From NCBI RefSeq assembly GCF_016862575.1, contig NZ_BONF01000006.1, positions 1-45,214 of the forward strand: 45,214 nt of DNA, read 5' to 3'. Shown here one piece after another: positions 13,901-39,567 of this stretch. Both the position numbers and the translations under genes were made by a program. This DNA is from Catellatospora bangladeshensis (GTDB taxonomy: Bacteria > Actinomycetota > Actinomycetes > Mycobacteriales > Micromonosporaceae). Within the stretch, counting starts at the first letter, position 1. Every line of letters starts with the position of its first letter. The notes below the pieces were generated by a model, which was given only the letters and a program-made list of their open reading frames with translations, searched no databases and was not told where the DNA came from.

Positions 13901-13922
13901 CCCTGCCTGCCTCCAGCGTTTT

Positions 13923-13949
13923 CGGCCGGCTTCGACGCCGACCGTTTTT
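13923..13949 (+). terminator. Rho-independent terminator after the 124-aa gene
   Basis: CGGCCGGC (13923-13930) and GCCGACCG (13937-13944) pair with one mismatch around a TTCGAC loop and are followed by TTTTT. It lies 22 bases after the stop codon of the plus-strand gene. A T run is rare in this GC-rich window, which supports the call. Confidence 0.65.
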
Positions 13950-14107
13950 GCTGCCCGGGGGTGGGGGCGGGGCTGGGTTTGCGGCTCCCGAGCTTTATTG
14001 ACGTTGGCCTATCACGTCGACTTCGGTCTCGGCCGGATCGATGTGGTGGGCCGACGTCTATGTGTGGCGGTCTGGTGGGGGTGCCTTTAGAACCGGCGCC
14101 GAGGATG

Positions 14108-14170
14108 GAGATCGGTGCCTCGTGTCGTTAGGTGCGGTCATGCCACAGGTTTCGACACGAACCGGCGATC
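14108..14170. repeat. Repeat family B, copy B2
   Basis: The first and most diverged of three tandem copies. Its arms are GATCGGTGCCTCGTGTCG and CGACACGAACCGGCGATC. Confidence 0.7.
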
Positions 14171-14221
14171 ATCTGCCGCGCGGCTGGGGTGCGGGTGTCG
14201 CTGCGGCGTTGGCCTGGTCGT

Positions 14222-14287
14222 GAAGATCGGTGTTTCGTGTCGGGAAGTGGGGCTGGGCCTCAGGTTTGGACACGAACCCGCGATCTT
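14222..14287. repeat. Repeat family B, copy B3
   Basis: The second tandem copy, beginning GAAGATCGGTGTTTCGTGTC and ending CGATCTT. The sequence before it (CTGCGGCGTTGGCC at 14201) recurs 115 bases later at 14316, so a unit larger than the palindrome was duplicated. Confidence 0.75.
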
Positions 14288-14336
14288 GCGCCGCGCGGCG
14301 GGCTTGGCGGCCTTGCTGCGGCGTTGGCCCGGTCGT

Positions 14337-14403
14337 GAAGATCAGTGTTTCGTGTCGGGAAGTGGGGCTGGGCCCCAGGTTTGGACACGAGATCGCGATC
14401 TTC
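14337..14403. repeat. Repeat family B, copy B4
   Basis: The third tandem copy, nearly identical to B3 over its left arm and centre (TCGGGAAGTGGGGCTGGGCC), differing mainly in the right arm. Confidence 0.75.
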
Positions 14404-14485
14404 GCGGGATGAGGGCCGCTGCGGGGGCGCGTCGGGGTGGATAAGTCGGGTGCGGTCGAGGACTCGCGGGTGCTCAGGGTTCCGG

Positions 14486-15139
14486 TTATAGGGACGACGT
14501 GGCGAGTTTGACGCCGAAGCCGACGAACAGGGCGCCGATGGCGCTGGTGCCGGCGGCGGCCAGGCGGCGCCTGCTGCGGAAGGTGGCGGCGAGCCGGTTG
14601 CCGCTGAAGATGAGCAGGCTGAGGTAGAGCGCGCTGCAGAGCTGCACGATGATCGCCAGTAGTACGAACGACGCGGCGGGGTAGGCGTACCCGGGGTCGA
14701 CGAACTGGATGAAGAACGAGACGAAGAACAGGATCGCCTTCGGGTTCATCAGGCTGATGGTGAAGGCGCGGCGGAACGCGTTCTCGGCCTTGGGCTCCGG
14801 CTGGGCGGCGGCCGCGTCGGGGCGGCCCGCGGCCAGGTCGCGCCAGCCGCGTACGGCGCTGACGACCATGCGGACGCCGACGTAGCCGAGGTATGCGGCG
14901 CCGGCGTACTTGACGACCATGAACAGGGCGGGCACGGCGCGCAGCAGCGAGGCCATGCCGGCCGCGGAGACGAGCATCAGCACGCCGTCGCCGCAGAACA
15001 CGCCGAGCGCGCCGCGGTAGCCCTGGCGTACGCCGCGGCGGGCCGCGACGGCGAGCACGTACATCGAGTTCGGTCCGGGCAGCAGCACGATGGCGATGGT
15101 GCCGAGCACGAAGGTCCACAGGTCGGTGACGCCGAGCAT
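14486..15139 (-). CDS. LysE/RhtB family translocator (LeuE-like)
   Basis: This is a small amino-acid exporter of 217 residues with about six membrane segments. Its opening, LWTFVLGTIAIVLLPGPNSMYVL, carries the LysE-family PGPN motif and resembles the leucine exporter LeuE more than LysE itself. A basic cytoplasmic loop (about residues 105-130) separates the two membrane halves. The ATG at 15139 has GAGAGGA upstream. The flavin/GNAT fusion gene ends 132 bases upstream on the same strand with a family A repeat between, so the two are probably separate transcripts. The transported substrate is inferred only to family level. Confidence 0.85.
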   Translation of the reverse strand: MLGVTDLWTFVLGTIAIVLLPGPNSMYVLAVAARRGVRQGYRGALGVFCGDGVLMLVSAAGMASLLRAVPALFMVVKYAGAAYLGYVGVRMVVSAVRGWRDLAAGRPDAAAAQPEPKAENAFRRAFTISLMNPKAILFFVSFFIQFVDPGYAYPAASFVLLAIIVQLCSALYLSLLIFSGNRLAATFRSRRRLAAAGTSAIGALFVGFGVKLATSSL

Positions 15140-15220
15140 GTGGCCATCCTCTCTCGTAAGGAGCGAAATGCGTGTCGGCCGTTAGGTCGAGATGCCCGTG
15201 TGCTGCGTCACCTGGGAGGC

Positions 15221-15271
15221 GTTAAGAAGGGCACCTTCTACTACGCATAGCGTTAAGAAGGTGCCCTTCCT
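15221..15271 (-). repeat. Repeat family A, tandem copies A3
   Basis: Read on the minus strand, AGGAAGGGCACCTTCTTAAC (15271-15252) is followed by the spacer GCTATGCGTAG and a second, slightly degenerate copy. The spacer is identical to the one at 39287-39297. The element begins at the base after the TAA of the PPOX-GNAT gene. Confidence 0.85.
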
Positions 15272-16504
15272 TTATTGAAGGCGGGCGCGGGCGGTGGGCC
15301 AGTCGGCGGCGAGCATGCTGAAGGTGACGGTGTCGCGCCAGGTGCCGTCGGGGCGCAGGCGGTGGTGGCGGTGTACGCCCTCGCGGGTCGCGCCGAGGCG
15401 GGCGATGGCGGCCTGCGAGCGCTCGTTGCGGTGGTCGGTGTGCCATTCGACGCGCTCGCAGCCGAGGACGTCGAAGGCGCGTTCGAGCAGGAGCAGCTTG
15501 GACTCGGTGTTGACGCCGGTGCGCCAGGCCTTGCGGGCCAGGAAGGTGTGGCCGATGCCGAGCTGGCGGTGCTTCGGGTCGATCGCGTAGTACGACGTGG
15601 TGCCGAGGATCTCGCCGGTGGCGGTGGCGCGCTGCACCCAGGGGACGCGCTCGCCGCGGTGCTGCATGTCCAGCGCGATCTCGACGAACGGGGCCAGCTC
15701 GGCGGGGGTGTGGGGGGTGCTGCGGCTTAGCCAGCGCCACACCTCGTCGTCGCCGCCGGCAGCGGCGAACAGGCCGTCCACGTGGGACAGGTCCAGCGGT
15801 TCCAGGGTCACCCGCTCGCCGCGCAGGACCACCGGCTCGAACCACGGGCCGCGCTCCAAGCCCAGGTAGTCGGGGACGGGCACGGTGACGCCGGGGGCTG
15901 GCTCGGCGCGGCCGGGCTCCACGCGCAGGGGGAGCACGCCCGCCCAGTACGGCAGGTCGAGGTCCTCCTCGTCGTCGCCGGCGGTGCCGGTGCGGGCGCG
16001 CACCGAGACCTCGTCCAGCGGCAGTGCCAGCAGGGCGGTCTGGGCCAGCTCCTTCGCCGACGGGGGCCGGGTGCGTGCGGCGTGGCCGGGGCCGATCTTC
16101 TCGGCGAGCGCGGTGAACACGCGCAGCTTCTCGGCCTCGTCGGTGACCAGCTCGGCGGTGCCGTGGGCGATCACAGAGCGGTAGTTGGCGCTGTGGTGGA
16201 ACTGCGAGCGGGCCAGCACCAGCCCGTCCAGGTGGGTCACGCAGGCGGCGACGCGCAGCCCGCCGCGGGCGCCCAGGCCCATCCGGCCGCCGCTGGAGCC
16301 GTGCAGGTAGAGCGTGTCGCCGACGCGCACGTGCAGGGTGGGCAGGACTCGGGGCTCATCGTCGAGCACGAAGGAGAGGGTGCAGTGCCACGCCTCGTCG
16401 AGGATCGCGTGCGCGGCGGCGCGGTCGTAGGACATGCGCTCGCGCATCCGCAGGGCGGTGGTGCGCGGGGTCCGGGGGTACGCGGACGGCTCGGTGCCGG
16501 CCAT
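15272..16504 (-). CDS. Pyridoxamine 5'-phosphate oxidase-like / GNAT acetyltransferase fusion
   Basis: This 410-residue protein joins two domains. Residues about 20-170 look like a split-barrel flavin-binding protein of the pyridoxamine-phosphate-oxidase superfamily, with TLHVRVGDTLYLHGSSGGRM and FHHSANYRSVIAHGTAELV. Residues about 225-400 form a GNAT acyltransferase of the RimJ/RimL type (RGERVTLEPLDLSHVDGLF, then LGIGHTFLARKAWRTGVNTE, the acetyl-CoA region). A strong AAGGAGG 5 bases before the ATG fixes the start. It is divergent from a MocR regulator with only 47 bases between, so it is probably the regulator's target. Either domain could be non-catalytic. A role in B6 or amine metabolism is inference. 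Confidence 0.85.
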   Translation of the reverse strand: MAGTEPSAYPRTPRTTALRMRERMSYDRAAAHAILDEAWHCTLSFVLDDEPRVLPTLHVRVGDTLYLHGSSGGRMGLGARGGLRVAACVTHLDGLVLARSQFHHSANYRSVIAHGTAELVTDEAEKLRVFTALAEKIGPGHAARTRPPSAKELAQTALLALPLDEVSVRARTGTAGDDEEDLDLPYWAGVLPLRVEPGRAEPAPGVTVPVPDYLGLERGPWFEPVVLRGERVTLEPLDLSHVDGLFAAAGGDDEVWRWLSRSTPHTPAELAPFVEIALDMQHRGERVPWVQRATATGEILGTTSYYAIDPKHRQLGIGHTFLARKAWRTGVNTESKLLLLERAFDVLGCERVEWHTDHRNERSQAAIARLGATREGVHRHHRLRPDGTWRDTVTFSMLAADWPTARARLQ

Positions 16505-31959: not shown

Positions 31960-33093
31960 ATGCGAACTGGTGTTTGGCTGGTCGGAGGGCGGGGGTCGGT
32001 CGCCGTCACCAGCATGGCCGGAGCCGTCGCGCTGCGCGCGGGGCTCGCCGAGCCCACCGGATGTGTCACGGAACTGCCGCAGCTGCACAGCCCCGCCCTG
32101 CCGGGCCTAGCCGATCTCGTCTTCGGCGGGCACGACGTGATCGCGACGCCGCTGTCCAAGCGGGCCGAGGCGCTCGCCGACGCCGGGGTGCTGCCCGGCC
32201 GCCTGGTCACCGCGGTGCAGCCGGACCTGGCCGCGCTCGACGCCGAGGTGCGCCCCGCGCCCCGGGGCGCGACACAGGCCGAGACGGCCGCGCTGATCGC
32301 CGCCGACCTCGACGACTTCCGCCGGCGGCACGAGCTGGGCCGCGTCGTCATGATGAACGTGGCCTCCACCGAGGCCGCCGCCGCGCCGCACGAGGCGCAC
32401 GCCGCGCTCGACCTGCTGCACAAGGCCCTGCGCGGCGACGCGGCCGTGCTGCCGCCCAGCTCGCTGTACGCGTACGCGGCGTTCACGGCGGGCTGCTCGT
32501 ACGTCGACTTCACCCCGTCCACCGGGGCGCGGCTGCCCGCGCTGGCGCAGCTGGCCTACGAGCGCGGGGTGCCGTACGCCGGGCACGACGGCAAGACGGG
32601 GGAGACCCTGGTCAAGTCGGTGCTCGCGCCGATGTTCGCGATGCGCAACCTGCACGTGCGCAGCTGGTCCGGGGCGAACCTGCTCGGCGGCGGGGACGGC
32701 GCCAACCTGGCCCAGCCCGCGCCGAACGCGGCCAAGGCCGCCAGCAAGCAGCGGGTGCTGGCCGAGACGCTGGGCTACCAGCCGCAGGGTGACACGCGCA
32801 TCGAGTACGTCGCCGATCTCGGTGAGTTCAAGACCGCGTGGGACCTGGTCACGTTCACCGGGTTCCTGGGCACGCCGATGCGGCTCGACTTCACCTGGCA
32901 CGGCTGCGACTCGGCGCTGGCCGCGCCGCTGGTGCTGGACCTGGTCCGGCTCACCGCCGCCGCGCACCGGGCCGGGCGCACCGGCCCGCTGCCGGAGCTG
33001 GCGTTCTTCTTCAAGGACCCGCTGGGCGACGTGCCGCACGGCCTCGCCGCGCAGTGGGACGCCCTGGTCGGCCTCGTGGAGGGCCTCGCGTGA
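31960..33093 (+). CDS. Inositol-3-phosphate synthase-like cyclase of the Ebo-like operon
   Basis: This 377-residue protein resembles myo-inositol-phosphate synthase, which uses NAD to cyclise glucose 6-phosphate to inositol 3-phosphate. An N-terminal Rossmann start (VWLVGGRGSVAVTSMAG) is visible. The GAPDH-like domain motifs follow: GHDGKTGETLVKS near residue 209, LGGGDGANLAQ near 245, and DSALAAPLVLDLV near 317. It belongs to the short actinobacterial group rather than the long eukaryotic form. The ATG at 31960 follows GGGAGAC. It is the first gene of six with overlapping ends (GTGA with the next gene). It occupies the cyclase role played by EboD in classical Ebo clusters. The true substrate could be another sugar phosphate. 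Confidence 0.85.
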   Translation: MRTGVWLVGGRGSVAVTSMAGAVALRAGLAEPTGCVTELPQLHSPALPGLADLVFGGHDVIATPLSKRAEALADAGVLPGRLVTAVQPDLAALDAEVRPAPRGATQAETAALIAADLDDFRRRHELGRVVMMNVASTEAAAAPHEAHAALDLLHKALRGDAAVLPPSSLYAYAAFTAGCSYVDFTPSTGARLPALAQLAYERGVPYAGHDGKTGETLVKSVLAPMFAMRNLHVRSWSGANLLGGGDGANLAQPAPNAAKAASKQRVLAETLGYQPQGDTRIEYVADLGEFKTAWDLVTFTGFLGTPMRLDFTWHGCDSALAAPLVLDLVRLTAAAHRAGRTGPLPELAFFFKDPLGDVPHGLAAQWDALVGLVEGLA

Positions 33094-34331
33094 GCGCCGT
33101 GCCCGAGGCGGGACGCCCGCCGTCCGCCCGCGCCCTGCGCGTGGCCGAGGGCCAGCGCGTCCCCGCCCGCCCCGGCAACCGCCACCAGGCTGCCGCCCGC
33201 CACGCCGCCGCACAGGCACCGCGCGCGGTCTCGCGCGCGGGCGCCCGGCCCTCGCCCACAACCACCGCGCACCCGACGTCACTGGACCGTGCGGCCGCGC
33301 TGCCCCCCACCTGCCGCGACCAGAGCACACCCGCGAACACCGCGTCAGCAGACCGGTTGCCCGTCCCACCCCGCAGTTTCGGGGAAAGTGCACTCTCGAG
33401 CCCGGCGACAGCCGCAGTTTCCCCGAAACTGCAACCCGGAGCGGGGACGGAGCGCCGGGCGGCGGGGTGGAAAGGCACGCTGCGGGCGGTGGCGGAGTTG
33501 GTGCGGGCGCCGGCGGCGCTGTCGGTGCCGGGGGACGTGATCGCGGGGGCCGCCGCGGCGGGCACGCTCGATCGGCGTACCCCCGGATTGGCCGCGGCTT
33601 CGGTGTGTCTGTATTGGGCGGGGATGGCCGCCAACGACTGGGCGGACCGGGAGCTGGACGCGGTGGAGCGGCCGGAGCGGCCGATCCCGAGCGGGCGGAT
33701 CTCGCCCGGGGCCGCGCTGGGTCTCGCGGCGGGGCTGACCGCCGCGGGGGTGGGGCTGGCCGCGTGGGCGGGTGGGCGCCGCGGCCTGGCGACGGCCGCG
33801 CCGCTAGCCGCCATGGTGTGGGCGTACGACGTCAAAGCGAAGAACACCGCCGCCGGTCCCGCCGCGATGGCCGCCTGCCGAGGGCTGGACGTGCTGCTCG
33901 GCGCGTCGTCCGGGCCGGTCGCGAAGGCGGTGCCCGCGGCGCTGACCGTCGCCGCGCACACCTACACGGTCACGGAGCTGTCGCGCCGGGAGGTGTCGGG
34001 CGCGGACGCCCGGCTGCCGCTGGCGACGCTGACCGGCACCGTCGCCGTCGCCGCGACCGCGGCCGGCCTGAGCACCCGCCGGGGCCTGCGCGCGTGGCTG
34101 CCCGCGGCCCTGGCGGGGTGGTACGTCTCGCACTACGGCCGGGCGCAGGCCCGCGCCGCCGCCGAGCCGAGCGCCGCGCGCGTGCGCGAAGCCGTCGGCT
34201 CGGGCATCACCGGCCTGCCCACGCTGCAGGGCACGCTGGCCGCCCGGCACGGGTCCGGCCTGGCCGGGCTCGCCCTCGCCGCCGCCGCGCCGCTGGCCCG
34301 GCGCCTGGTCCGGAGGATCTCCGCCACATGA
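33090..34331 (+). CDS. SCO3242-like UbiA family prenyltransferase (EboC-like)
   Basis: This multi-helix membrane protein belongs to the UbiA prenyltransferase superfamily and resembles the SCO3242/EboC group. The Asp-rich motif ND-x2-D-x3-D is at residues 182-190 (NDWADRELD), followed by RPIPSG, as expected for prenyl diphosphate and Mg binding. About eight hydrophobic segments follow. The GTG at 33090 overlaps the upstream stop (GTGA), but the conserved domain starts only near residue 130. The first 130 residues are Ala/Arg/Pro-rich, lose the high GC3 pattern after about codon 70, and contain two palindromic repeats. The true start may be a GTG near 33489. The prenyl donor and acceptor are unknown. 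Confidence 0.82.
   Translation: MSAVPEAGRPPSARALRVAEGQRVPARPGNRHQAAARHAAAQAPRAVSRAGARPSPTTTAHPTSLDRAAALPPTCRDQSTPANTASADRLPVPPRSFGESALSSPATAAVSPKLQPGAGTERRAAGWKGTLRAVAELVRAPAALSVPGDVIAGAAAAGTLDRRTPGLAAASVCLYWAGMAANDWADRELDAVERPERPIPSGRISPGAALGLAAGLTAAGVGLAAWAGGRRGLATAAPLAAMVWAYDVKAKNTAAGPAAMAACRGLDVLLGASSGPVAKAVPAALTVAAHTYTVTELSRREVSGADARLPLATLTGTVAVAATAAGLSTRRGLRAWLPAALAGWYVSHYGRAQARAAAEPSAARVREAVGSGITGLPTLQGTLAARHGSGLAGLALAAAAPLARRLVRRISAT
33373..33432. repeat. Paired 19-bp palindromes inside the 5' part of the UbiA gene
   Basis: GCAGTTTCCCCGAAACTGC (33414-33432) is a perfect palindrome with 8-bp arms. A near copy of the reverse orientation, GCAGTTTCGGGGAAAGTGC, is at 33373-33391. The two can also pair with each other into a longer stem. 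They lie in the poorly conserved N-terminal coding stretch. Confidence 0.75.
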
Positions 34332-35824
34332 ACCTGCGTTTCGGGTACGGCACCAACGGCTTCGCCAACCATCGTCTCGGCGACGCGCTGGCCGTGCTCG
34401 CCGAACAGGGCTACGACGGCGTCGCGCTGACGCTGGACCACCACCACCTGGACCCGTACGCCCCCGGCCTGGCCCGCCGCGTGTCCGGCCTGGCCACCCG
34501 GCTGATCGAGCTGGGGCTGTCCGTGGTCGTCGAGACGGGCGCCCGCTACCTGCTCGACCCGCGCCGCAAGCACGCGCCCACGCTGCTGCACGACGACCGC
34601 GAGGTGCGGCTGGACTTCCTGCTGCGCGCCGTGTCGATCGCATCCGACCTCGGCGCGGAGGCGGTGTCCTGCTGGTCGGGAGTGCGGCCGCCGTCGGTCG
34701 ACCCGCAGCTGGCCTGGGACCGGCTGGTGGACGGCTGCGCCCGGCTCACCGAGGCCGCGTCGAAGGCGGGCGTGCCGGTCGGCTTCGAGCCCGAGCCGGG
34801 CATGTTCGTGCAGGACCTGGCGGGCTGGCGCACGCTGCACCGGGCGCTGGGCATGCCGCGCGCCTTCGGGCTGACCCTGGACATCGGGCACTGCCGCTGC
34901 CTGGAGCCGGAGCCCATCCCGGAGTGCATCGCGACCGCCGCGCCCTACCTGGTGAACGTGCAGATCGAGGACATGCGGCGCGGGGTGCACGAGCACCTGG
35001 AGTTCGGCGAGGGCGAGATCGACTTCCCGCCGGTGCTGCGGGCGCTGTCCGCGGCCGGATACCGCGGGCTGATCGGGGTGGAGCTGCCACGGCACTCGCA
35101 CGCCGCGCCTGAGGTCGCCCGGCGTTCGCTGGCGTTCCTGCGCAAGGCCGCCGGGCAGCCCATCACGGCAGCGGCCAAGACGGCCGCCCCGCCCGGACAG
35201 CGCCGCCCGAGCGGCACCGTGCCCGGACCCGACGTGCTGCGCGCCGCGCTGGCCTGCGTGGACGACGGCGGGTGGCTGGACGAGGCGCTGCGCCGGGTGG
35301 CCGCCGACCCGTCCGTGATCAGCCGGCTGTTCCCCGCCGCCGCGCGCCGCTGCGGGCGCGGCCCGGTCGGGGTGCCCGGCTGGACCGCCGACGAGGCGGC
35401 GCGCGCGGTGCTGCTGGCCACGCTGCCCGCCGAGCACACCGCCGGGCAGGCGCGCGCCCTCTACCGGCACGGCGACGCCGCCGAGAAGCGCGCCGTGCTG
35501 CGCGCCCTGCCGCTGCTGCCGCTCGGCCCGAGCGCCGTCGAGCTGCTGCACGACGCGATCCGCACCAACGACACCCGGCTGGTCGCCGCGGCGCTGGGGC
35601 CGTACGCGGTGCACCTGGACGCCGCCGCCTGGCGGCAGGCCGTGCTCAAGTGCGTGTTCATGGGCATCCCGCTGTCCGTCGTGGACGGGCTGGAACACCG
35701 GGCCGACGCCGAACTCGCCGCGATGCTCGCCGGGGTCGCCGACGAGCGCGACGCCGCCGGGCGCCAGCTGCCCGCCGACGCCGCGGCGCTGCTGGACCGC
35801 CTCACCGCCGAGAAGGGGATCTGA
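34328..35824 (+). CDS. Sugar isomerase/epimerase-type TIM barrel fused to an EboA domain
   Basis: This 498-residue protein has two parts. Residues 1-275 form an AP-endonuclease-2/xylose-isomerase-like barrel with probable metal ligands in FEPEPGM (153-159), TLDIGHC (183-189), the EGEIDF region (228-233) and VELPRHSH (251-258). Residues about 295-498 look like an EboA domain: a helical repeat-like region with RHGDAAEKRAVLRALPLLP, then FMGIPLSVVDGLEHRADAEL. In other Ebo clusters these are separate proteins, so the fusion implies a direct partnership. The ATG at 34328 overlaps the UbiA stop (ATGA), and the stop overlaps the next start (TGATG). The function of EboA is unknown, and isomerase activity is inferred from fold only. 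Confidence 0.82.
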   Translation: MNLRFGYGTNGFANHRLGDALAVLAEQGYDGVALTLDHHHLDPYAPGLARRVSGLATRLIELGLSVVVETGARYLLDPRRKHAPTLLHDDREVRLDFLLRAVSIASDLGAEAVSCWSGVRPPSVDPQLAWDRLVDGCARLTEAASKAGVPVGFEPEPGMFVQDLAGWRTLHRALGMPRAFGLTLDIGHCRCLEPEPIPECIATAAPYLVNVQIEDMRRGVHEHLEFGEGEIDFPPVLRALSAAGYRGLIGVELPRHSHAAPEVARRSLAFLRKAAGQPITAAAKTAAPPGQRRPSGTVPGPDVLRAALACVDDGGWLDEALRRVAADPSVISRLFPAAARRCGRGPVGVPGWTADEAARAVLLATLPAEHTAGQARALYRHGDAAEKRAVLRALPLLPLGPSAVELLHDAIRTNDTRLVAAALGPYAVHLDAAAWRQAVLKCVFMGIPLSVVDGLEHRADAELAAMLAGVADERDAAGRQLPADAAALLDRLTAEKGI

Positions 35825-36675
35825 TGCGCATCTTCGACCCGCACGTGCACATGACCTCGCGCACCACCGACGACTACGAGGCGATGGCCGCCGCCGGGGT
35901 GCGCGCCGTGGTGGAGCCGTCGTTCTGGCTGGGCCAGCCGCGCACCAGCCCCGGCTCGTTCGCCGACTACTTCGACGCGCTGATCGGGTGGGAGCCGTTC
36001 CGGGCCGGGCAGTTCGGCATCCGGCACTTCGCCACCATCGCGCTGAACCCGAAGGAGGCCAACGACCCGCGCTGCCGCGAGGTCCTGGAGCTGGTCCCGC
36101 GCTACCTGGACAAGGACGCCGTGGTCGCGGTGGGGGAGATCGGGTACGACTCGATGACCCCGCAGGAGGACGAGGCGTTCGCCGCGCAGCTCGGGCTGGC
36201 CGTCGAGTTCGACCTGCCCGCGCTCGTGCACACGCCGCACCGGGACAAGCAGCGCGGCACCCAGCGCAGCCTGGCCGTGGTGCGCGAGTCCGGCATCGAG
36301 CCGGGCCGGGTGGTCATCGACCACCTGAACGAGGTGACCGTGGAGCTGGTCCGCGACAGCGGCTGCTGGCTGGGCTTCTCCATCTACCCGGACACCAAGA
36401 TGTCGCCGCCGCGCATGGTGGAGCTGCTGCGCCGGTACGGCACCGAGCGCATGCTGGTGAACTCCGCCGCCGACTGGGGCCGCTCCGATCCGCTGCTCAC
36501 GCTGCGCACCGGTGAGGCGATGCTGGCCGCCGGGTTCGGCGAGGACGACGTGGACCGGGTGCTGTGGCGCAACCCGGTCGAGTTCTACGGCGCGTCCGGC
36601 AAGCTCGACCTGTCCGACGACGAGGCGCCGGCCGGCGAGTTCGCCGGGAACTCGATCAAGCGCGGGGGCGCCTGA
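35824..36675 (+). CDS. TatD family metal-dependent hydrolase (EboB-like)
   Basis: A 283-residue amidohydrolase-fold protein of the TatD type. The metal ligands are in place: H7 and H9 (FDPHVHM), E105 (GEIGYD), H136/H139 (VHTPH), H167 (IDHLNE) and D217 (AADWG). TatD proteins are usually nucleases, but in Ebo clusters this member is thought to act on a metabolite. Its start overlaps the preceding stop by one base (TGATG), and it overlaps eboE in the same way. No signal peptide is seen, so it acts in the cytoplasm. Confidence 0.85.
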   Translation: MRIFDPHVHMTSRTTDDYEAMAAAGVRAVVEPSFWLGQPRTSPGSFADYFDALIGWEPFRAGQFGIRHFATIALNPKEANDPRCREVLELVPRYLDKDAVVAVGEIGYDSMTPQEDEAFAAQLGLAVEFDLPALVHTPHRDKQRGTQRSLAVVRESGIEPGRVVIDHLNEVTVELVRDSGCWLGFSIYPDTKMSPPRMVELLRRYGTERMLVNSAADWGRSDPLLTLRTGEAMLAAGFGEDDVDRVLWRNPVEFYGASGKLDLSDDEAPAGEFAGNSIKRGGA

Positions 36676-37892
36676 TGCGGCTGGCACACCCCGACGGGCA
36701 GACGGTGCACCTGAGCTACTGCACCAACGTGCATCCCGCCGAGGACCTCGACGGCATCGTCGCGCAGCTCGACGCGTACGGCAGCGCGATCCGGCACCGG
36801 CTGGACGCCGACGTGCTGGGGCTGGGCCTGTGGCTTGCCGCCCCGGCCGCCTCGGCGCTGGCCGCCGAGCCGCACCTGCGCCGCCGCCTGCGCCGCGAGC
36901 TGGACCTGCGCGGCCTGGAGGTGGTCACGCTCAACGGCTTCCCGTACCAGTCCTTCCAGGCCGAGGTGGTCAAGCACGCGGTCTACCACCCGGACTGGAC
37001 CACGCCGGAGCGGCTGCGCTACACCCTCGACCTCGCCCAGGTGCTCGCCGACCTGTTGCCCGACGACGCGGTGCGCGGCTCCATCTCGACGCTGCCGCTG
37101 GCCTGGCGCGAGCCGTGGGGCCCGGACCGGGCGGGGGCCGCCCAGCGGGTGCTGGACGAGCTGGCCGACGGCCTGGCCGGGATCGCGGGCACCACCGGCC
37201 GTACCGTGCAGGTCGGCTTCGAGCCGGAGCCCGGCTGCGTGGTCGAGACGACCGAGCAGGCCGCCCGGCTGTGGGCCGGCATGGACGGCGACTGGCTCGG
37301 CGTCTGCCTCGACCTGGCCCACCTGGCCTGCGCCTGGGAGGAGCCCGCCGAGGCCCTCACCAGGCTCGCGAAGGCGGGGCTGCCGGTGGTGAAGGTGCAG
37401 GTGTCGGCCGCGCTGACCGCCGACGACCCGGTCGCCGCCGAGGCGGCGCTGCGCGGCTACGACGAGCCGCGCTTCCTGCACCAGACCCGGGGTTCGCGCG
37501 GCGAGGCCGCCGACGACCTGGGCGAAGCGCTGGACCGGCTGCTGCCCCGGCCGCGGCGCACCCCGCAGCCCTGGCGCGTGCACTACCACGTGCCGCTGCA
37601 CGCCGAACCGGCTCCGCCGCTGGGCAGCACCCTGCCCGAGCTGCGGATGGCGCTGAAGGAGCTGTTCGGCGGCCCGGTCGCCGGGTGCGACCACGTGGAC
37701 GTGGAGACGTACACCTGGCAGGTGCTGCCCCCGGCGCAGCGGCCCACCACGCCGGAGCAGCTCGCCGCCGGGATCGCCGCCGAGCTGGCGTTCGCCCGGG
37801 ACGAGTTGTGCGCGCTGGGGCTGGCGCCGTGCCCGCCCGCCGCGCCGCTGGGCACCATGGAGCTGCAGGAGGTCCGCCCGTGGACGCCGTGA
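36675..37892 (+). CDS. eboE: Metabolite traffic protein EboE
   Basis: A 405-residue TIM-barrel protein of the EboE family. The opening LSYCTNVHPAEDL (13-25), the LNGFPYQSFQ segment (86-95) and FEPEP (182-186) are characteristic. The same FEPEP motif occurs in the barrel of the upstream fusion protein, suggesting related metal or substrate sites. C-terminal residues 320-400 (VHYHVPLHAEP, then VDVETYTWQVLP) match the family's end. The start overlaps the EboB stop (TGATG). In cyanobacteria, loss of ebo genes impairs export of the scytonemin precursor to the periplasm. The chemical role of EboE is unknown. Confidence 0.85.
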   Translation: MRLAHPDGQTVHLSYCTNVHPAEDLDGIVAQLDAYGSAIRHRLDADVLGLGLWLAAPAASALAAEPHLRRRLRRELDLRGLEVVTLNGFPYQSFQAEVVKHAVYHPDWTTPERLRYTLDLAQVLADLLPDDAVRGSISTLPLAWREPWGPDRAGAAQRVLDELADGLAGIAGTTGRTVQVGFEPEPGCVVETTEQAARLWAGMDGDWLGVCLDLAHLACAWEEPAEALTRLAKAGLPVVKVQVSAALTADDPVAAEAALRGYDEPRFLHQTRGSRGEAADDLGEALDRLLPRPRRTPQPWRVHYHVPLHAEPAPPLGSTLPELRMALKELFGGPVAGCDHVDVETYTWQVLPPAQRPTTPEQLAAGIAAELAFARDELCALGLAPCPPAAPLGTMELQEVRPWTP

Positions 37893-39265
37893 CCCCGCTG
37901 GTCGTGCTGGACGTGGTCGGGCTGACCCCGCGCCTGCTGGAGCACATGCCCCGGCTGCGCGCGCTGGCCGGGTCCGGCTTCGCCGCGCCGCTGGGCACGG
38001 TGCTGCCCGCGGTGACCTGCTCGGCGCAGGCGACGTTGCTCACCGGGGTGTCCCCGGCCGAGCACGGCATCGTCGGCAACGGCTGGTACTTCCGCGACCT
38101 GGGCGAGGTGCTGCTCTGGCGGCAGCACCACGCGCTGGTCGGCGGGGAGAAGGTCTGGCAGGCGGCCCGCCGGGCCCGGCCCGGCTACACCGTGGCGAAC
38201 ATCTGCTGGTGGTACGCCATGGGCGCGGACGTGGACTGGACCGTCACGCCCCGGCCGGTGTACCGGGCGGACGGGCGCAAGGAGCCCGACTGCTACACCG
38301 ACCCGCCGCAGCTGCACCGGGCCCTGTCCACCGAGCTGGGCACGTTCCCGCTGTTCCAGTTCTGGGGGCCGGGTGCGGGGATCGCGTCCAGCCGCTGGAT
38401 CACGGGCGCCGCGCGTTACGTGATGCGGGTGCACCAACCCGACCTGACCCTGGTCTACCTGCCGCACCTCGACTACGACCTGCAGCGTTTCGGCCCGTAC
38501 GGCCCCGAGGCGGCGGCCGCCGCACGTGAGCTGGACGGCGTCATCGGGCCGCTGCTCGACGATGCGACGGCGCGCGGGGCGACCGTGGTGGCCCTGTCGG
38601 AGTACGGCATCACGCCGGTGCGCCGCCCCGTGGACGTCAACCGGGCGCTGCGCGCCGAGGGCCTGCTCCGGGTGCACACCCAGGCCGGCATGGAGTACCT
38701 CGACCCGTGGACGTCCCGCGCGTTCGCGGTCGCCGACCACCAGCTCGCGCACGTGTACGTGAAGGACCCGGCCGACCTGCGCACCGTCGCCAAGGTCTGC
38801 GCGAACCTGCCCGGCGTGGCCGAGGTGCTCGACGAGGCGGGCAAGGCCCGGCACGGCCTGGACCACCCGCGCTCCGGTGAACTGGTGCTGGTCGCCGAGC
38901 CGGAGTCGTGGTTCACGTACTACTACTGGCTCGACGACGCCAGGGCCCCCGACTTCGCGCGCCTCGTGGAGATCCACCGCAAACCCGGCTACGACCCGGC
39001 GGAGCTCTTCTTCGACCCCGCCGCCCCGCTGGCCGCCAAACGCCGCGCCGCCACCGCCCTGCTCCGCAAGAAGCTCGGCATGCGCTACCTGATGAGCGTC
39101 GTCGGCCTCGACGCCGGCGCCCTGGCCGTCCGCGGCTCCCACGGCCGCCTGCCCGACCACCCCGCCGACGGCCCCCTGCTCATCTGCTCCGACCCCACCG
39201 CCGCCCGCGGCTCCTTCGCCGCCACCGACGTCAAACCCCTCCTCCTCCACCTAGCCGGGATTTGA
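37880..39265 (+). CDS. Alkaline phosphatase-fold phosphodiesterase/pyrophosphatase (EboF-like)
   Basis: A 461-residue protein of the nucleotide pyrophosphatase/phosphodiesterase group. Metal-site positions are visible: an early Asp in LVVLDVVG, a Thr nucleophile region PAVTCSAQATLLTG, SPAEHGIVGNGWYFRD, LPHLDYDLQRFGP and the late ADHQLAHVYV. The GTG at 37880 is preferred because AGGAGG lies 7 bases upstream (37867-37872); it overlaps eboE by 13 bases. A GTG at 37889 overlaps the stop as GTGA but is 16 bases from that site. There is no signal peptide, so it is probably cytoplasmic and could release a phosphorylated headgroup or diphosphate. A family A repeat follows the stop at once. Confidence 0.85.
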   Translation: MDAVTPLVVLDVVGLTPRLLEHMPRLRALAGSGFAAPLGTVLPAVTCSAQATLLTGVSPAEHGIVGNGWYFRDLGEVLLWRQHHALVGGEKVWQAARRARPGYTVANICWWYAMGADVDWTVTPRPVYRADGRKEPDCYTDPPQLHRALSTELGTFPLFQFWGPGAGIASSRWITGAARYVMRVHQPDLTLVYLPHLDYDLQRFGPYGPEAAAAARELDGVIGPLLDDATARGATVVALSEYGITPVRRPVDVNRALRAEGLLRVHTQAGMEYLDPWTSRAFAVADHQLAHVYVKDPADLRTVAKVCANLPGVAEVLDEAGKARHGLDHPRSGELVLVAEPESWFTYYYWLDDARAPDFARLVEIHRKPGYDPAELFFDPAAPLAAKRRAATALLRKKLGMRYLMSVVGLDAGALAVRGSHGRLPDHPADGPLLICSDPTAARGSFAATDVKPLLLHLAGI

Positions 39266-39266
39266 A

Positions 39267-39317
39267 AGGAAGGGCACCTTCTTAACGCTATGCGTAGAGG
39301 AAGGGCACCTTCTTAAC
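39267..39317 (+). repeat. Repeat family A, tandem copies A4
   Basis: Two perfect copies of AGGAAGGGCACCTTCTTAAC (39267-39286, 39298-39317) with the spacer GCTATGCGTAG, starting one base after the stop codon of the EboF-like gene. The spacer is identical to that at 15241-15251 read in reverse. Confidence 0.88.
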
Positions 39318-39391: not shown

Positions 39392-39503
39392 CCTGGCACC
39401 CGCTCCGGCGGCTGCCGGTGGGATCGATGCAGGGGTGCCAGGTGCCCACATGACCGGCCGCGCCGGGCGGGAAACCCTCCGGCGTGTCCGATGCGGACGG
39501 TTG

Positions 39504-39563
39504 CTTTGCTCTGCACACATATACGCGACAGCAGCCGGGTGCGTATATGTGTGCAGAGCAAAG
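39504..39563. terminator. Perfect 23-bp-arm hairpin downstream of the cellulase gene
   Basis: Positions 39504-39526 pair without mismatch with 39541-39563 around a 14-base loop. The arm includes GCACACATATACGC, AT-richer than its surroundings. On the minus strand it begins 4 bases after the cellulase stop codon. There is no T run, so it may be an mRNA-protecting stem, a terminator or a small mobile palindrome. Confidence 0.75.
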
Positions 39564-39567
39564 CCGG

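Follow-up and report, generated by a model that had tools for sequence, protein, structure and literature searches.

Ebo clusters, whose chemistry is little understood, are spread over numerous bacterial phyla and occur in the plastids of algae. According to Yurchenko et al. (2016; PMC5133447), EboD, a protein of the dehydroquinate synthase (DHQS)-type superfamily, belongs to the ebo operons described in print, apart from a few that lack it; that paper and Klicki et al. (2018; PMC6282210) already put forward an isoprenoid-cyclitol product and a lipid carrier for these clusters. Here we analyze a 45,214-nucleotide stretch of DNA from the soil actinobacterium Catellatospora bangladeshensis (Actinomycetota, Micromonosporaceae), called the window, which is contig C6 of an 8.8-Mb genome. 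Six plus-strand genes fill its positions 31960 to 39265; they include a myo-inositol phosphate synthase (MIPS) homologue and no EboD. With somewhat better than even confidence, we read them as a MIPS-type ebo operon whose most likely product is a polar lipid built from an isoprenoid and a cyclitol head group.

An earlier note on this DNA, made from its letters alone, had correctly seen six plus-strand genes at this place and had proposed a prenylated cyclitol or cyclitol lipid, a reasonable idea that was in print before. It had also named SCO3241, SCO3242, and SCO3243 as similar genes beside the calcium-dependent antibiotic (CDA) cluster of Streptomyces coelicolor. PMC3610822 lists SCO3242 and SCO3243 as CDA-cluster genes and describes SCO3243 as a MIPS, which bears this out in part. 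No function for the S. coelicolor pair was found in open-licence PubMed Central (PMC) text, and the exchange of EboD for MIPS, the haloarchaeal cluster, and the altered EboF site described below were not found in print there either.

RESULTS

An additional MIPS homologue in an ebo operon

Homologues of EboA, EboB, EboC, EboE, and EboF occur together in the window, where gene 2 falls short of the EboC cut-off and passes the SCO3242-family one. Gene 1 matches both MIPS families, PF07994 (NAD_binding_5; 169 bits) and PF01658 (Inos-1-P_synth; 104 bits), above the Pfam cut-offs and has the catalytic lysines. Since only MIPS families were matched in Pfam and NCBIfam, gene 1 was rejected as an EboD homologue; its earlier description as a sugar-phosphate cyclase holds loosely, for an enzyme of the MIPS family and not of EboD's superfamily. 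Its best solved relative is Archaeoglobus fulgidus MIPS (1u1i; E = 2.4e-66, near full-length). Residues N240, K259, K263, K291, and K352 are identical in 91 of 91 aligned MIPS sequences, haloarchaeal and Gemmatirosa copies included (92 were found, a length filter removed the short C38 copy, and the genes of L129, L132, and L133 lie outside the ebo set). In the aligned A. fulgidus chains, three of the five catalytic positions are mutated; we take the remaining two to be catalytic as well.

Three MIPS-type genes are present in the genome: in the window, on contig C19 (within another full copy of the operon), and on contig C38. The C38 gene, on a very long branch of the MIPS tree, scores 656 bits against the mycothiol INO1 model TIGR03450 (cut-off, 638) and is the housekeeping INO1 of the genome. 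Against this model gene 1 reaches 35 bits, and the C19 copy gives no match at 1e-5. Gene 1 was therefore rejected as the housekeeping inositol synthase, and because that enzyme is encoded elsewhere, the operon copies are additional.

Conservation of the operon in Actinomycetota

Of 296 Actinomycetota genomes, 14 gave an EboE match, 13 of them above the cut-off. Within the window's family, 88 of 150 genomes encode an SCO3242-type prenyltransferase that passes the model's threshold, including the 11 of its genus, the window's own among them. The actinobacterial set held 97 loci, counting the window, and drew on 3 of 28 Streptomyces plasmid records; some loci may be the same genome counted twice. 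Seven loci with only an EboE-like gene were set aside. The other 90 all contain the TatD and PF01663 genes; MIPS is present in 84 of these and EboD in none, which leaves 6 where no cyclase was seen. Contigs are cut upstream in four of the six (L053, L056, L058, and L088), L038 is a broken operon, and L026 is intact, its genome holding another copy, L027, that has MIPS. As gene 1 matches MIPS families only and EboD is missing from all 90 loci, we file the locus as a MIPS-type variant and not as a standard ebo operon.

The order MIPS-UbiA-TIM-EboA-TatD-EboE-PF01663 is kept on one strand in 84/84 loci with MIPS, TatD, and PF01663 genes, as scored on the genes found (L108 lacks the barrel and L114 a detected prenyltransferase). 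Because one order and strand are maintained throughout, the linkage of the six genes is more than chance. A barrel like that of gene 3 is present in 83 of the 84. It is separate from EboA in 78 and fused to it in 9 of the 87 loci with both, so the fusion described earlier is real but was rejected as the typical state. An EboA-TIM hybrid in Actinobacteria had been noted by Yurchenko et al. as "data not shown" in the accessible text of PMC5133447.

Upstream of the MIPS-less operon of L026 lies a carotenoid-oxidoreductase-like FAD gene (13912-15333, minus strand; 144 bits to the CrtO model, cut-off 1000). On a Streptomyces camelliae plasmid (L125), a gene annotated as ScyD/ScyE family (1040-2242), by its name related to the scytonemin cluster, directly precedes a MIPS-type ebo operon; with this locus only, such a gene was rejected as a companion of actinobacterial ebo operons.

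Cyclases of ebo loci in other Bacteria

EboD was detected in eight non-actinobacterial loci, and MIPS in none of them. Our EboD-type sample consisted of seven plasmid records (Deinococcus, Roseivivax, Azospirillum, Salipiger, Mycetohabitans, Aureibacter, and Ketogulonicigenium) and a Fibrobacteria locus, L112, from the genome scan; a further non-actinobacterial locus of that scan, L113, lies on a short contig where no cyclase was seen. In Gemmatirosa (Gemmatimonadota), which has no EboD, the genes for the prenyltransferase, MIPS, and a gene-3-like barrel lie side by side. PF01658, run over 11 whole records, was positive in four (three haloarchaeal and Gemmatirosa) and negative in six EboD records and Haladaptatus. 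PF01761, run over 10 whole records, matched only two EboD records, and 7/7 MIPS-type records were negative. Both cyclases together were seen in 0 loci examined. The gene-3-like barrel accompanies MIPS in Gemmatirosa and the three haloarchaeal clusters but occurs in only one of the eight EboD loci. In this sample, where one phylum dominates the counts and MIPS-bearing lineages number three, MIPS and a sugar-epimerase-like barrel thus appear to take the place of EboD, and do so in Actinomycetota, Gemmatirosa, and haloarchaea.

The Gemmatirosa proteins differ in their affinities. EboE is placed with seven rows of the EboD type (100/99), EboF with EboD-type rows (94/98), and TatD with Deinococcus (100/100), the last in a tree that carries a long-branch warning for the haloarchaeal and Gemmatirosa/Deinococcus rows. 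The prenyltransferase falls with its actinobacterial and haloarchaeal counterparts (split, 100/100) when three long rows are removed; with these kept, the split is the same, but Aureibacter, Fibrobacteria, and Thiotrichales also stand on the MIPS side. We read this as the exchange, in Gemmatirosa, of one module comprising ring synthesis and prenyl transfer.

The nearest solved structures to Azospirillum EboD are dehydroquinate synthases, followed by 4p53 ("Cyclase," which we take to be ValA), further dehydroquinate synthases, and 2-deoxy-scyllo-inosose synthase. Two oxidoreductases of the Gfo/Idh/MocA type, together with a sugar phosphate isomerase, lie at the flanks of the Ketogulonicigenium EboD-type operon (L135, 4771-6817 and 13223-14134) and could supply ring-oxidizing steps. 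Plasmids of Methylobacterium and Roseomonas carry MIPS and a gene-3-like barrel with no ebo genes nearby; the annotated Roseomonas cluster adds a methyltransferase, a Gfo/Idh/MocA oxidoreductase, a metallo-beta-lactamase-fold protein, and a YcaO protein. A separate cyclitol pathway is possible there.

Related clusters on haloarchaeal plasmids

On plasmids of Halobaculum, Halocatena, and Natronococcus, MIPS and PF01663 genes adjoin TatD, barrel, UbiA, and barrel genes (six genes), and the PF01663 protein carries the EboF signature. The UbiA proteins reach neither the EboC cut-off (178 to 197 bits; cut-off, 250) nor that of SCO3242 (161 to 170; 260) and, at 61 to 67 bits, are also under the cut-off of the digeranylgeranylglyceryl phosphate (DGGGP) synthase model. 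Among 7998 proteins scored, 478 matched the haloarchaeal UbiA, and the best 120 of the 478, where the organism was named, were all haloarchaeal. The Halobaculum barrels score 20 to 22 bits against the EboE model (cut-off, 250), and neither was recognized as EboE. No EboA was found on four haloarchaeal records, an absence that is only suggestive because the same search matched nothing in control genomes. Halomarina has MIPS and lacks the cluster. With these clusters, haloarchaea become additional hosts in which the pathway can be tested.

The altered metal site of EboF

Gene 6 (PF01663, 228 bits) and the TatD protein both score above their Pfam cut-offs and are homologous to EboF and EboB, respectively, of Azospirillum. 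The AlphaFold model of gene 6 (mean predicted local distance difference test score, 81.8; residues 362-383 and 400-414 under 50) has the nucleotide pyrophosphatase/phosphodiesterase (NPP) fold by Foldseek, with template modeling scores of 0.57 to 0.63 on the query among the 50 matches listed. Its site was read from alignments to the solved Xanthomonas NPP and two plasmid-borne NPPs. The NPP ligands in the motifs IDG, D-x3-H, and SDHG correspond to V13, Q202, and E241-Y242. V13, T46, D198, E241, and Y242 are present in 103/103 EboF sequences, Q202 is present in 101, and H421 is present in 102, with one gap. The two-zinc site of NPPs (D, T, D, H; D, H, H) is thus not retained, with 4 of the 6 non-nucleophile ligands replaced.

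EboF is thus unlikely to be a classic two-zinc phosphodiesterase, although the E241 glutamate could still bind a metal and some activity may persist. The earlier call of a phosphodiesterase is weakened by V13, Q202, E241, and Y242, and the site casts doubt on an annotation that entered previous pathway models.

Prenyltransferase, barrels, and TatD protein

The profile searches suggested in the earlier note placed all three proteins concerned above their NCBIfam cut-offs: gene 2 in the SCO3242 family of UbiA prenyltransferases (NF045897, 379 bits; cut-off, 260), the EboA domain of gene 3 (155; 50), and gene 5 as EboE (NF035939, 414; 250). Gene 2 scores 139 bits against EboC (NF035940; cut-off, 250) and was rejected as a DGGGP synthase, with at most 53 bits to models so named (cut-offs, at least 278). 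Its NDxxDxxxD motif (N182, D183, D186, and D190, numbered from 33090), D247, and K251 are at least 95% conserved (n = 96).

The best fold matches of the gene 3 barrel are epimerases, in a list that barrel matches fill for the whole fusion; this barrel and the two Halobaculum barrels have weak similarity to IolE, IolO, and hydroxypyruvate isomerase models. Gene 4 was correctly called TatD-like (PF01026, 48 bits); its nearest solved relative is AF_1765 (3guw). H7, H9, E105, H136, H167, and D217, presumably metal ligands, are at least 95% conserved (n = 102).

Gene layout and surroundings

Table 1. Genes and spacer of the window operon (window coordinates) and two MIPS-barrel pairs from plasmids (coordinates of their own loci)
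Feature	Position	Strand	Basis
Gene 1: MIPS homologue, 377 aa	31960..33093	+	PF07994, PF01658
Probable spacer, genes 1/2	33094..33488	.	Codon-position composition, variable length in genus, repeat pair
Gene 2: SCO3242/EboC-like UbiA-superfamily prenyltransferase	33489..34331	+	NF045897; GTG 33489 as the likelier start
Gene 3: sugar-epimerase-like TIM barrel (~1-280) fused to EboA domain (355-488)	34328..35824	+	
Gene 4: EboB-type TatD-family metal-dependent hydrolase	35824..36675	+	PF01026
Gene 5: EboE TIM-barrel protein	36675..37892	+	NF035939
Gene 6: EboF-type PF01663 protein, altered canonical two-metal site	37880..39265	+	PF01663
MIPS and barrel pair, L132	5980-7173 and 12106-12951		
MIPS and barrel pair, L133	5977-7182 and 12502-13113		

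All gene ends had been described as overlapping. Four of the five junctions do overlap (ATGA at 34328-34331, TGATG at 35822-35826 and 36673-36677, and 13 bases at 37880-37892), but the GTGA at 33090 that would join genes 1 and 2 is doubtful, given the codon-position composition and a repeat pair. Codon-position bias is weak at 33210-33329 and absent at 33330-33449; an inverted repeat pair, 33373-33387/33418-33432, has 55 + 57 = 112 copies in the genome and 0 in the reversed control. The gap from the MIPS stop to the prenyltransferase core is 405 nt in the window and 183 to 423 nt in five other Catellatospora loci; it is 11 to 77 nt in 10 of the 11 remaining loci measured, the C19 copy included (the core of the eleventh, L126, could not be matched usably). 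Because the SCO3242-family profile begins at residue 133 as numbered from 33090, GTG 33489, which gives 281 codons including the stop, is more likely the start of gene 2 than the GTG 33090 of the earlier note. The first 120 bases from 33090 (33090-33209) are coding-like (GC at positions 1/2/3, 0.93/0.70/0.95), and gene 2 may have an N-terminal extension into them.

The nearest relatives of the window genome are other Catellatospora species, with EboE 91 to 92% identical in five of them. Catellatospora genomes also have a further, distant EboE-like gene (C1:91829-92563 in the window's genome; 59 bits, below the cut-off), and no other ebo genes were found near it in L115 to L118. Just 3' of gene 6, the direct repeat GAAGGGCACCTTCTTAAC (39269-39286 and 39300-39317) is a dispersed repeat, with 125 + 136 genome copies and 0 in the reversed control. 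Farther downstream, an inverted repeat with 20-base arms (GCTTTGCTCTGCACACATAT; 39503-39564) adjoins a putative cellulase-like gene, identified by eye, and has no other occurrence in the genome.

DISCUSSION

The likeliest product of the operon would be a prenylated cyclitol with an inositol-type ring. Gene 1, with its conserved catalytic residues, would convert glucose 6-phosphate to inositol phosphate; the gene 3 barrel may epimerize or dehydrate the ring, perhaps aided by another enzyme; and gene 2, a membrane protein with prenyl-transfer motifs, would add a prenyl chain to the cyclitol or a derivative. EboB, EboE, and EboF might then tailor or handle the product, while the all-helical EboA domain, perhaps a docking element, is joined to the barrel enzyme in this operon. 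Elsewhere in Bacteria the ring would come from EboD and not from MIPS, both versions feeding a cyclitol-type ring into a common pathway; the EboD product may then be a six-membered inositol- or inosose-type ring, not necessarily the sedoheptulose 7-phosphate product proposed so far. The substrates, order of steps, and product are what we infer from sequence. A wider reading, which we hold tentatively and think somewhat more apt to be wrong than right, is that one cyclitol-isoprenoid pathway exists in Bacteria and haloarchaea, with the ring step exchanged between the unrelated EboD and MIPS plus a TIM barrel and with a prenyltransferase/TatD/TIM/EboF core kept; EboD would make an inositol/inosose-type ring, and EboF would represent a new class within the NPP fold, either catalytic or binding, that acts on the prenylated cyclitol. 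The MIPS swap matters because a nonhomologous cyclase of known founding activity, from glucose 6-phosphate to inositol phosphate, provides a concrete, testable substrate other than the sedoheptulose 7-phosphate proposed so far. Together with the archaeal gene set, it sharpens the idea of an ebo lipid made of a sugar-derived ring and an isoprenoid tail.

Several observations weigh against the cyclitol pathway or the cyclase exchange. The strongest is that Ubi-297, the only assayed EboC-type enzyme we met, prefers quinoline-type aromatic acceptors in vitro (PMC9235831), which does not point to a cyclitol. Parts of the same paper describe an ebo cluster of the actinobacterium Saccharomonospora as including EboD; hence, EboD-type operons may exist in Actinomycetota. 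Haladaptatus (L136) has a fourth haloarchaeal cluster, matching the other three, with MIPS absent from the whole plasmid. Fibrobacteria L112 combines EboD with a TIM barrel, and its EboE lies among actinobacterial rows (92/92); Motilibacter L108 has MIPS and lacks the barrel. The second operon of genome G128 (L026) and the broken L038 have no cyclase in view, and the EboD-type Aureibacter and Fibrobacteria prenyltransferases, on long branches, stand on the MIPS side of the tree. The preference for six carbons over seven, finally, is something we infer.

Farnesylation of 8-hydroxyquinoline-2-carboxylic acid and quinaldic acid by Ubi-297 in vitro (PMC9235831, in part) would suit a pathway in which MIPS, followed by inosose-dehydratase-like barrels, yields a polyhydroxy-aromatic ring through dehydration of the cyclitol; gene 2 would then prenylate that ring, and the product would be a prenylated phenol or quinol in place of a cyclitol lipid. 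The weak similarity of the gene 3 and Halobaculum barrels to IolE, IolO, and hydroxypyruvate isomerase models also favors this route, but the best fold matches of the gene 3 barrel are epimerases, its specificity is unreadable from sequence, and no gene of the operon matched an inosose-making dehydrogenase family in Pfam or NCBIfam; we regard an aromatic product as unlikely, if the most serious of the alternatives. Still less probable is that the Ebo proteins form a metabolite-translocating apparatus, as their database names say, with repurposed enzymatic folds. The Nostoc ebo cluster is reported, in the accessible text of PMC6282210, to be responsible for excretion of scytonemin intermediates from cytoplasm to periplasm, and the altered EboF site also speaks for it; against this, the catalytic residues of MIPS, the prenyltransferase, and TatD are conserved throughout or in no fewer than 95% of sequences.

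A Haloferax MIPS homologue, HVO_B0213, is listed under synthesis of polar lipids with an inositol head group in parts of PMC8305020, and the operon could likewise feed inositol phosphate into phosphatidyl- or archaetidyl-inositol, with the other genes as unrelated neighbors. We give this very little credence: the order is invariant in the 84 loci, the genome has a separate housekeeping INO1, no CDP-alcohol phosphatidyltransferase is present among the six genes (Pfam), and EboF, EboB, and EboC partners stand beside MIPS in two domains of life.

Several known systems come close to the window operon or its genes. With gene 1, A. fulgidus MIPS (1u1i) shares near full-length similarity and counterparts of all five catalytic residues, whereas gene 1 is embedded in an operon, is extra to a housekeeping INO1, and falls far under the INO1 equivalog cut-off. 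EboF shares with NPP and phosphonoacetate hydrolase (2gsn and 1ei6) the fold, the nucleophile position T46, D198, and H421, but their ligands D, H, D, and H are V13, Q202, E241, and Y242 in EboF. The SCO3242 family (NF045897), found with SCO3243 in the CDA region of S. coelicolor, resembles the window in gene 2 (379 bits) and in a MIPS-type partner; a difference is the upstream neighbor of the window operon, a putative miaB-like gene identified by eye. With the eboA-F operon of cyanobacteria, Bacteroidota, and eustigmatophyte plastids, the window shares EboA, the TatD-like EboB, the UbiA-type EboC, EboE, and EboF; it differs in lacking EboD and in having MIPS and an extra sugar-epimerase-like barrel, with EboA fused to that barrel.

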